Positions 7-9,378 of a stretch of 51,940 nt of DNA are shown piece after piece. How positions within the stretch are numbered: the stretch's first letter is position 1; each line of letters starts with the position of its first letter. The translations under genes and the position numbers were made by a program. The notes beneath the pieces were generated by a model. The model made no database searches. It worked only from the letters and a program-made list of their open reading frames with translations, and was not told where the DNA came from. Location: the NCBI GenBank assembly GCA_025930755.1, contig JAICOJ010000013.1, forward strand, positions 1 to 51,940, read 5' to 3'. This stretch comes from Gemmatimonadaceae bacterium. GTDB lineage: Bacteria; Gemmatimonadota; Gemmatimonadetes; Gemmatimonadales; Gemmatimonadaceae.

Positions 7-141
7 GCATAACTAGCTGTTGCACCTGTCAGGCGCGATGTCTAAGGTATTCATCCCGATCTGAACCCCTTGAAGTGCAACTGCGAGGCGAGCTTCGCTC
101 GCCTTCTGGAAAATCGCCTGCAGGTGAACGCAGCGTTATGC
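7..141 (+). repeat. attC site 1
   Basis: Left box GCATAAC at 7-13, right box GTTATGC at 135-141. Inner arms CACCTG and CAGGTG are complementary. The central part contains a GCGAGC-TTC-GCTCGC hairpin. It closes a cassette whose gene lies before the window. Confidence 0.9.
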
Positions 142-794
142 GGATGCCACACTTCTCGCTTATGCGACGGCTCGGCCGTTGGATCATGAGGCGGACCGCT
201 CGCCCGGGTCTCGCAGTGGCTGACTGGATGCTGGCGCGCTTCGCCCCCTACGTCAGCGCCTGGGAAAGGATCAATGCACCTATTCCCGGCGTCGCGATGG
301 GATGGCCGGATGACGACGCAATCAATCGATACTTGGCCGGCCCAAGTACGGTCCCGGTGGCCGACCTCGATGACATCCGGACATGGCTCCAGAGCTGCGC
401 GTACGAGCGAACCCATGAGTTTCGCGCTCAAGCCGCGTGGGAATCGCTCCCCTTCGTCTTCGAGTACGTCAAGCGTGGGGACTGCATGGACCACGCGCTG
501 TGGGCGTGGCGCAAGCTTCGGGAGCTTGGTATCGATGCCGACTTCGTCGTAGGTTGGACGGGTCCGCCAGGCGTCGGACATCGACATGCCTGGGTCATAC
601 TCGGTCAGGGGAGTGACCGGTTGCTCTTCGAGACGGTAGAGAAGGTGCGCCCGCGAATGCTTCGGCCGTTGTCGGATCGCGAGACGTACATCCCAGAGTT
701 CGGTGTGGATCGTCACGGGCGTCGCTTCGCTTTTGGAGGTCTCGCGCACCTTGTGCGTGCGCAACGGTCGGCTTCTGGCGCCCGCACCGCATAA
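138..794 (+). CDS. Transglutaminase-like cysteine protein (cassette 1)
   Basis: The 218-residue product resembles transglutaminase-like cysteine peptidases. A GDCMDH segment gives a candidate nucleophile Cys116, GHRHAWV gives His150, and LLFETVEK gives acidic Glu165, in the order Cys-His-Asp/Glu used by that fold. No signal peptide is clear, although the N-terminus is basic. The ATG at 138 lies inside the right box of attC 1, so integration itself supplies the start codon; an alternative start is ATG 144. The stop TAA lies inside the left box of attC 2. The substrate is unknown, and a peptidase, amidase or cross-linking role cannot be separated from sequence alone. Confidence 0.72.
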   Translation: MRMPHFSLMRRLGRWIMRRTARPGLAVADWMLARFAPYVSAWERINAPIPGVAMGWPDDDAINRYLAGPSTVPVADLDDIRTWLQSCAYERTHEFRAQAAWESLPFVFEYVKRGDCMDHALWAWRKLRELGIDADFVVGWTGPPGVGHRHAWVILGQGSDRLLFETVEKVRPRMLRPLSDRETYIPEFGVDRHGRRFAFGGLAHLVRAQRSASGARTA

Positions 795-924
795 CTAGCT
801 GTTGCAACTGGCAGGCGCGATGTCTATGGTAGCCATCGTGGCTGAACCCCTTGAAGTGCAACTGCGAAGGCACGCTGTGCGCGCCTTCTGGAAGATCGCC
901 TGCATTTTGAACGCGGCGTTCTGC
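789..924 (+). repeat. attC site 2
   Basis: Left box GCATAAC 789-795 matches the TTATGC that opens cassette 1. Right box GTTCTGC 918-924 instead matches the end of cassette 2 (GCAGAAC at 1591). The middle holds a GAAGGC...GCCTTC hairpin. Confidence 0.9.
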
Positions 925-940
925 GGACGCTCCAGTTTCT

Positions 941-1600
941 ATGCGACGACTAAGACTGATCTTCATGATCGGCGTACCGGGTGCCGGCCTCGCTTGTCGC
1001 GAGATCGAGCAGGAACGCTTCCCTCTCACCGGCACATACGTAGTTGCACTCTGCCAGGGTGAATGCGAGCTCGACGATTCCAGTCGGACACTCTTCGCGG
1101 GGCGTCTCACGCTTGTGGATACTCCGCTCGTGATCGCGCACTTGCCGGAAGCAAAGCGCTCTTATCTTGAACTCACGTCCCTATTCAAGACGGTAAGCGG
1201 CCCCCTCAATGGCTGCTTCGAGTTCTATCCTGTGCGCGCCACGCGAGTAGACTTTCACGGCCTACCTTACCTGCGCGCGCCTGGGGCCTCGACGTGGCTC
1301 GATCCTGTAGGTCTTACGCACTGGGAAGCACGACCACCGGACAGCATCACGCTTACGCTCTATCGCTCCGCGGACGCTAGCCACGACATCCTGGCAAGGA
1401 TTGTCAACGGTCGGTTGGAGGGCCGCGGATCGTGGTTCGCTGCTGGGGACGGCGCCGAGCGAGAACGCGAAGGCGATCTTGGCTCCGATTTCGTCATCGG
1501 ACGTCGCATCGGCCCGCCGGATCTGGATTCGTGCATTCGGAACTCCCCTGAGCTTCCGAGTCGTGCGTCGCAAAGCTCCTCAACCGCGCCGCAGAACTAG
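941..1600 (+). CDS. Putative lipoprotein of unknown function (cassette 2)
   Basis: The 219-residue protein starts with a basic N-terminus, a hydrophobic stretch and a GLAC lipobox near residue 19, so export and lipid anchoring at Cys19 are likely. The remainder is mixed beta-type sequence with several cysteines and no motif I recognise. The last codons, Gln-Asn-stop, are written by the left box of attC 3 (GCAGAAC followed by TAG), so the attC defines the C-terminus. It sits alone between two attC sites. The lipoprotein call rests on the signal sequence only. Confidence 0.6.
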   Translation: MRRLRLIFMIGVPGAGLACREIEQERFPLTGTYVVALCQGECELDDSSRTLFAGRLTLVDTPLVIAHLPEAKRSYLELTSLFKTVSGPLNGCFEFYPVRATRVDFHGLPYLRAPGASTWLDPVGLTHWEARPPDSITLTLYRSADASHDILARIVNGRLEGRGSWFAAGDGAEREREGDLGSDFVIGRRIGPPDLDSCIRNSPELPSRASQSSSTAPQN

Positions 1601-1725
1601 CCGTTGCAACATGACAGGCGCGATGTCTGTGGTAGCCATCGCGATGAACCCCTTGAAGTGCAACTGGGAAGGCGAGCTTCGCTCGCCTTCTGAAAGGCCG
1701 CCTGCAGTTGGACGCAGCGTTATGC
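1591..1725 (+). repeat. attC site 3
   Basis: Left box GCAGAAC 1591-1597, right box GTTATGC 1719-1725. Same central hairpin family as attC 1 (GAAGGCGAGC/GCTCGCCTTC). Confidence 0.9.
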
Positions 1726-1740
1726 AGCACCGGAGTTCTG

Positions 1741-7927: not shown

Positions 7928-8500
7928 ATGACTGCTCGTCGACTGTGGCCTCTACTCGGCCTTTCAGGTCTGGTTGCTGCGGGATGCGCGCAATCCCGGC
8001 CCGCCGTCGCCACGTTCAGCGACGCCGCCGCCGGTACCTACAGCTTGATCATCTTCTCCAAGGATTCGTCTGGAGTTTGGAATCGTGCCGCTGACGGTGT
8101 CTTGGTCCTGACGCAGGGTCGTCTACCCAACCGTGTCCGTCGCGCTCTCGAGCCAGTCGAAGGCGATGAGAGCGCCACGCCTCAGCGGCCCTCGCTTGGC
8201 GAGGCGTGCTTTCGATGGAGCGCGGTGGTAGCGAATGATCGAAGCCTTGCCACCGTTCATAGCGCAGGCGCAACCACGTGGCGACGCGTTCGAGGCGATT
8301 CGGTCCACTTGCTCCTCTTCACCACGATGGACGCGAGTTATCAGGTCGTTCTTGGGCCTGTAGCAGGCACGAGGCTGGCCGGCCGTGGCGATCCCTACGC
8401 CTTCCGCCTCGCATCCGAACCGGAACCCCCGGCCGACAGTGTGGTGATGGACCGCGTTGGGGAACCGAATGCCTCACGGTGTCTGGCGGTCGAACGATGA
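7928..8500 (+). CDS. Putative lipoprotein (cassette 12)
   Basis: The 190-residue protein has a typical lipoprotein signal: MTARR, a hydrophobic core, and lipobox VAAGC with Cys20. The rest alternates beta-strand-like stretches with charged loops, and no motif is recognised. ATG 7928 is chosen because it starts the signal peptide; the open frame runs back through attC 12 to 7820. The stop is 16 bases before attC 13. It is one of several exported proteins carried by this array. Confidence 0.62.
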   Translation: MTARRLWPLLGLSGLVAAGCAQSRPAVATFSDAAAGTYSLIIFSKDSSGVWNRAADGVLVLTQGRLPNRVRRALEPVEGDESATPQRPSLGEACFRWSAVVANDRSLATVHSAGATTWRRVRGDSVHLLLFTTMDASYQVVLGPVAGTRLAGRGDPYAFRLASEPEPPADSVVMDRVGEPNASRCLAVER

Positions 8501-8516
8501 CATCGCGACGCATACC

Positions 8517-8649
8517 GCATAACGACCCACTGCACCTGACGAGCGTGTTGCTCGAGAAAGCCATCCCATACCCCCTGCCCCGCTCCGCGCGAGAGCGACC
8601 ATCCGTCTCCTGCGGGCCGGACGCTCGCAGGTGAATGGGAGCGTCATGC
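8517..8649 (+). repeat. attC site 13
   Basis: Left box GCATAAC 8517-8523 matches the start of cassette 12. Right box is GTCATGC 8643-8649, with C in place of the second T, which may weaken recombination. Arms CACCTG/CAGGTG. Confidence 0.85.
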
Positions 8650-8765
8650 TGCTCCAGTCCTCTTGCCAGGTCTCCCTTGACTCCTTGGAGCGTCTTCCCT
8701 AGCGTCGGTCTCCCGCGGGCGCTTTCGCGCCGCAGCCGTGCAAGCCTTCTCGTGAAGGGGGGCCT

Positions 8766-9191
8766 ATGCCTACGCAGCAGAGACTGCCCGTCACCGATAC
8801 AGACTTTGAACGCCGATGGGTCGAAGCACTCAATCGTGGCGACATTGCGGTGGCCGATGAGACGTTCGCACCGGACTGCGTCATTCACATTACGGGCAGT
8901 CCCGATCCCAACCTGTCGGTGGAAGGGTTCAAGCAAATGGTCGGAGGCCTCTTGGCGGCCTTTCCCGATCTTCACTTCACGATCGAGGACCAGATAGTCA
9001 CCGGCGACAAGGTCTGCACGCGTTGGACGGCGGAGGGAACGAACACGGGCATGTTCGGAGAGGTACCACCCACTGGACGGCCGGTGCACGTGGATGGGCT
9101 GATCCTCGACCGCGTCGAGAATGGCCGAGTCGTCGAGCGCTGGGAGCAATGGGATCAATCGGCCATGATGCGCCAGCTCGGGCTGCTCTGA
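8766..9191 (+). CDS. SnoaL-like/ester cyclase family protein (cassette 13)
   Basis: The 141-residue protein fits the NTF2-like SnoaL fold: an N-terminal helix with 'RRWVEALNRGD', the segment 'GFKQMVGGLLAAFPDLHFTIED', and the C-terminal strand pattern ending 'VERWEQWD'. Members bind or isomerise small hydrophobic molecules, and many are of unknown role. ATG 8766 has an AGGGGGG run just upstream. About 115 bases lie between attC 13 and the start with no visible gene. The family is well supported; the reaction is not. Confidence 0.78.
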   Translation: MPTQQRLPVTDTDFERRWVEALNRGDIAVADETFAPDCVIHITGSPDPNLSVEGFKQMVGGLLAAFPDLHFTIEDQIVTGDKVCTRWTAEGTNTGMFGEVPPTGRPVHVDGLILDRVENGRVVERWEQWDQSAMMRQLGLL

Positions 9192-9236
9192 CTGTTCACC
9201 ATTCAAGCAGGCGCCGGCGAGCGCCACGAGCCCGCC

Positions 9237-9378
9237 GCATAACTAACGTTTGCAACCGTCAGACGCGACGCTCAAGGAAGCCATCGCATTTACCCAGTGG
9301 TGTTCGAGGTTGAACACCTGCAAAACGGGCAGGCGGTCCGCTTTTCTTCGTCGGCGCCCGGCGGGTTGAAGCGTCTGC
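9237..9378 (+). repeat. attC site 14 (degenerate right end)
   Basis: Left box GCATAAC 9237-9243 and the next 55 bases match attC 5. The right half has diverged and the right box is reduced to GTCTGC (9373-9378). This is the first clearly damaged site when reading left to right. Confidence 0.7.

Follow-up and report, generated by a model that had tools for sequence, protein, structure and literature searches.

Architecture and Gene Content of the Array

We analyzed a window of 51,940 nt, lying on contig JAICOJ010000013.1 of GCA_025930755.1, a Gemmatimonadaceae draft genome of 4.27 Mb in 275 contigs. Between positions 7 and 8649 it carries 13 intact attC sites of 133–137 bp, all on the + strand, evenly spaced at 498–841 bp and each followed by one + strand ORF. 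A search of the window against Rfam returned no match, so a covariance model (R1) was made from the 13 intact sites themselves, which it scores at 98–143 bits. In order, these are attC 1 (7–141, 143 bits; the contig begins 6 bases earlier), attC 2 (789–924, 136.5 bits), attC 3 (1591–1725, 136.6 bits), attC 4 (2207–2341, 123.9 bits), attC 5 (2804–2940, 112.6 bits), attC 6 (3481–3617, 117.6 bits), attC 7 (4091–4227, 121.6 bits), attC 8 (4932–5066, 133.5 bits), attC 9 (5734–5868, 109.9 bits), attC 10 (6462–6597, 132.6 bits), attC 11 (7271–7404, 120.5 bits), attC 12 (7769–7902, 115.8 bits), and attC 13 (8517–8649, 98 bits), the last with a GTC core. Left ends read GCATAAC, GCAGAAC, or GTATAAC and right ends GTTATGC or GTTCTGC, with one GTTATAC and one GTCATGC. 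Mean pairwise identity among the sites is 70%, and subfamilies are present, such as that common to attC 4 and attC 12 (82% identical). The original prediction had counted fourteen attC sites with defined outer boxes; thirteen stand as intact, while the fourteenth, at 9237–9378 on the + strand (R1 42.4 bits, E 4e-9), is classed as degenerate because its left half is kept and the GTT core of its right half is gone. Its description of small single genes in one direction agrees with the single + strand ORF per cassette and the common strand of the 13 sites.

Pfam matches identified a transglutaminase-like protein at 150–794 (Transglut_core, 1.5e-5), a GNAT acetyltransferase at 2962–3450 (7.6e-21), an anthrone oxygenase-like membrane protein at 3644–4096 (PF08592, 9.5e-18), a YcxB-like protein at 5088–5636 (3.8e-6), a HIT-domain (HinT-like) protein at 5937–6392 (1.9e-23), and a SnoaL-like protein at 8766–9191 (1.3e-40). 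The GNAT protein scores far under every NCBIfam resistance cut-off among those listed. No Pfam family was assigned to the ORFs at 941–1600, 1741–2181, 4267–4941, 6615–7280, and 7416–7805, nor was any family found for a probable membrane protein at 2391–2789, so called from its hydrophobic sequence, or for a putative lipoprotein at 7928–8500, whose signal was read from the sequence. A search of 148 family genomes for the protein of ORF 6615–7280, meant to reveal movement between genomes, recovered it from this genome and from none of the 147 others, and the ten cassette proteins checked for defence functions gave no matches. Several cassette ORFs have their stop codon inside the next attC, as does ORF 7416–7805 in attC 12.

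Structural Evidence for attC Sites

Having been trained on the 13 intact sites, R1 can draw independent support only from sites beyond them: two further matches in the window, at 13102–13237 and 10853–10991, isolated attC sites on two other contigs of the same genome, away from the main array (C54, L050:9423–9561; C39, L051:9639–9763), and long arrays adjoining IntI in other genomes. Aligned, the 13 sites keep R and L box pairing in 95.4% of cells, as against 32–43% when the structure is slid by 1–3 columns, and double-sided (compensatory) changes in the outer and inner box pairing occur in 12 cells against a shuffled mean of 5.4. Bottom-strand folds beat all or nearly all shuffles in most of the intact sites tested (z −1.8 to −4.4, the latter for attC 1). 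At 3481 and 13102 (z +0.9) the fold was not clearly better than shuffles, and the degenerate site at 9237 (z −0.3) was likewise no better. R and L boxes together with a foldable bottom strand, one of the marks of an integron, are found here.

Being inverted repeats of imperfect symmetry that follow genes, the 135-bp repeats could resemble dispersed palindromes (REP or MITE-like) or terminator hairpins. The genome does contain a real dispersed palindrome, a strong one at 49068–49149 of the window with an 80% identical copy on C229 (L049:5287–5368), both strands matching, which is probably a REP-like element. The array repeats differ in having a GTT core and AAC ends, two box pairs, one orientation relative to the genes and one gene each, and homologous sites occur in arrays directly adjoining IntI in Gemmatirosa and in G016. 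We therefore consider a palindrome or hairpin origin extremely improbable. The repeats at the left end of the window are a genuine integron cassette array, integrons being an already known type of element.

A Decaying Tail and the Origin of the Contig

Rightward of attC 13 the sites deteriorate. Beyond the degenerate attC 14, R1 matched, on the + strand, a remnant at 10853–10991 (50.5 bits, E 3e-11), a site at 13102–13237 with well-kept outer boxes (86.9 bits, E 9e-21), a possible remnant at 13767–13861 (20.3 bits), and a short remnant at 16745–16802 (15.6 bits), the last trace of the array. The remnant ending at 16802 is 56-bp, of deletion type, and keeps a CGTTATGCGG core. This motif is seen five times in the window against 0.07 expected from a shuffled window; four copies, all on the + strand, coincide with attC or their remnants, and the fifth, on the − strand, spans the beginning of attC 13. 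Tail included, the array thus extends to about 16.8 kb instead of ending at 9.4 kb. The array placed by the original prediction at 7–9378 is thus real, and its extent was understated.

Genes in the decaying part include an opposite-strand (−) ORF at 9547–10734 with no Pfam match and three cassette-like ORFs on the + strand: a putative lipoprotein of no family (11082–11696), a PD40 beta-propeller protein (11914–12990, Pfam 2.3e-22), and an ORF at 13219–13773 with a weak glycine-zipper match (Pfam 0.006, below cut-off). From 13300 to 22400 the window holds small accessory genes (two AHSA1-like, two glyoxalase-like, a YcxB-like, and a methyltransferase) along with faint attC remnants. In the sister genome G001, the stretch that was fetched contains nothing corresponding to this run of genes, which may be old cassettes stripped of their attC.

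The GC content falls within the array (0.63 versus 0.68), as it could if the contig were an assembly or binning chimera. Acquired cassettes, however, are usually lower in GC, and the attC deteriorate gradually, across about 8 kb, with no abrupt stop. Moreover, the right flank at 22.4–36 kb is colinear with contig C122 of G001 and 75–86% identical over long stretches, which indicates that the window contig belongs to this genome; for 1–22.4 kb no nucleotide-level counterpart was found in the fetched G001 stretch. On these grounds a chimera is very unlikely. The host suggested earlier, a member of Gemmatimonadota, is upheld and narrowed: Gemmatirosa kalamazoonensis (Gemmatimonadota; Gemmatimonadaceae) falls in the same family as the window genome, which places the host, a soil-type bacterium, in Gemmatimonadaceae.

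Candidate Partner Integrases and attI

Using the TIGR02249 cut-off (265 bits) to call IntI, we found two full-length integrases in the genome, both on contigs other than that of the array: C91:199–1134 (442 bits) and C229:18057–19001 (411 bits), 54% identical to one another. The C91 protein aligns with VchIntIA (2a3v) over residues 12 to 325, nearly its full length (E 8e-89), and all 18 IntI that were aligned share the presumed catalytic residues R141, K166, H272, R275, H298, and Y307 (C91 numbering). The contig ends 195 bp (C91) and 480 bp (C229) past the intI stop, that is, on the 3′ side, and the final letters of C91 are exactly GGCGTT. On C229, a recognizable attI, made up of a conserved attI-like block and a GTT core, is found some 260 bp 3′ of where intI stops. 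The block ahead of AAGTTATGCG is common to C229 and G001, with divergence thereafter; up to AAGTTATGCGG it is shared with G001, of the same genus, and less closely with G284, and beyond it the sequences diverge, as would be expected of an attI followed by differing first cassettes. A weak scan for a sigma-70-like promoter between intI and attI on C229 found none. The C229 attI already carries the start of a cassette, beginning TTATGCGG, and the same cassette start follows the window attC at 7–141, 4091–4227, and 7769–7902. This common start favors C229 as the likely partner of the array. The IntI and attI originally expected to the left of the array thus exist in the assembly, the attI on C229, but on other contigs that are not joined to it.

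Both IntI adjoin contig ends. The predicted intI is therefore present in the genome and yet unjoined to the array; no contig of this genome connects the two. Synteny through G001 gave no link from the array to C91 or C229, because the G001 contigs break at the same places. In three relatives (G016, G017, and G093) array and intI share one contig; G017 is Gemmatirosa kalamazoonensis KBS708, a 99.9% match to NZ_CP007129.1.

Strictly, the window contig as assembled is a CALIN, an array without integrase, and the contig break lies within the array. The array might be a CALIN in the genome as well, produced by off-target insertion or rearrangement, with the two intI serving other arrays. The lack of intI on the window contig would fit this, as would the isolated attC on C54 and C39 and the arrays without nearby intI in the relatives G005:C4, G014:C8, and G022:C26. 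Against this, the left-end break of the contig falls at an attC, on the side where intI is expected, both intI contigs break just past their 3′ ends, and the attC go from intact at the left to decayed at the right, as a live attI at the left would predict. We accordingly regard a true CALIN as unlikely, and are highly confident that this is an integron cassette array of the Gemmatimonadaceae genome. Its partner would be either the C91 or, more likely, the C229 IntI.

In an integron of this kind, each attC would fold as a single (bottom) strand, and the integrase would cut and join the folded site at its G/TT core. Single-gene cassettes would be captured at attI, the newest nearest to it, and the older ones, far from attI on the right (9.2–16.8 kb), would have decaying attC. 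If C229 supplies the likelier partner integrase, its intI would point toward the array in a reverse geometry, with attI about 260 bp beyond its stop. On this reading the array would be active in recombination and expressed from a promoter near attI.

Reverse Geometry in Sampled Gemmatimonadota

In the sampled part of the phylum, Gemmatimonadota arrays sit 3′ of intI on its strand, the “reverse integron” arrangement. The original prediction does not speak of this orientation, which is not visible from the window. All significant R1 matches (E below 0.01) beside intI were 3′ and on the same strand as intI, and in one set of relatives this held for 29 of 29 matches, weaker ones included; the exceptions, at L221, are two palindromic sites that the model had already matched and matches again on their second strand. 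Contig breaks within 1 kb of intI fell on the 3′ side in 33 of 35 Gemmatimonadota cases (two on the 5′ side) and in 7 of 38 cases from other phyla (31 on the 5′ side). For this genome, both intI have their break on the 3′ side. A custom-built attC finder that relied on complementarity of the boxes, too strict and blind to strand, showed enrichment on the 3′ side of intI and nothing further. As a check on side preference, the model did find 5′ arrays on the opposite strand in other phyla (L110, L101, and L086), though some matches in this check are weak.

Matches 3′ of intI and on its strand, some of them weak, also appeared in Acidobacteria and Planctomycetes (L068, L072, L074, L076, L096, and L115), which suggests that the reverse geometry extends more widely than Treponema and Gemmatimonadota; at L068 the contig-break label contradicts the 3′ match. 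A quick IntI tree placed 60 of 61 Gemmatimonadota sequences on the side of Treponema, Desulfuromonas, Coriobacteriia, and Krumholzibacteriia, with weakly supported deep branches, and parsimony on this tree gave six orientation changes from noisy labels.

IntI above the cut-off occurred in 134 of 394 sampled Gemmatimonadota genomes, about a third, and in 26 of the 41 nearest relatives, this genome counted. Complete integrons are reported from 20% of gammaproteobacterial genomes (PMC8618304), a count made differently from our integrase-only figure.

Comparison With Known Integrons

With the sedentary chromosomal integrons of the Vibrio and Xanthomonas type, this system shares an IntI tyrosine recombinase, attC that are alike within the array, and mostly uncharacterized single-gene cassettes (PMC8618304). 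It differs in that intI, if placed as in the relatives, reads toward the array and not away from it, and the array is shorter as assembled. In Treponema denticola, the source of the name reverse integron, intI and cassettes are transcribed in the same direction, with attI 3′ of intI (PMC7691350). That direction is seen in the relatives of the window genome, and 60 of 61 Gemmatimonadota IntI share the Treponema side of the IntI tree (weak deep support), whereas phylum, high GC, long attC (133–137 bp), and attI sequence set the present system apart. A third comparison is plasmid 1 of Gemmatirosa kalamazoonensis KBS708 (NZ_CP007129.1), from a host of the same family, with reverse geometry and attC matched by R1. 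Its array holds at least 59 attC over about 44 kb (about 857–813 kb; L053, L205, and L206); in contrast to ours, its attC are mostly 94–99 bp, it sits on a 1.1-Mb replicon, and its IntI is 59% identical to the C91 IntI.

The view that large arrays in this phylum are poorly described holds in part, given that Gemmatimonadota are listed among integron-bearing phyla (PMC8618304) and, among integron elements carried by plasmids, the 1.1-Mb Gemmatirosa replicon is named as belonging to the two largest (PMC9024848). A limited literature search, with many subscription papers outside it, turned up few papers linking integrons to Gemmatimonadota and no account of their orientation or prevalence there. 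Integrons of the phylum are thus already on record; what is mainly added here is the reverse geometry, seen across the sampled phylum, together with the high frequency. On balance, we lean toward seeing Gemmatimonadota as a main, largely overlooked reverse-integron phylum, about a third of its genomes having an integrase, with the array almost always 3′ and at times exceeding 50 cassettes, and the geometry as ancestral or long fixed in the phylum, not as a peculiarity of Treponema.

Most knowledge of integrons comes from Gammaproteobacteria, where intI and the cassettes are transcribed away from each other and the first cassette has its promoter within or next to intI. In a phylum with intI directed into the array, cassettes must be expressed in some other way, and their transcription may be coupled to that of the integrase. 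These arrays also widen the known reservoir of uncharacterized soil gene cassettes. Because short-read assemblies break right beside intI in Gemmatimonadota, such arrays are probably under-counted. In one genome (G021), two integron-integrase-like genes stand in tandem (L062:9068–10225 and 10608–11480).
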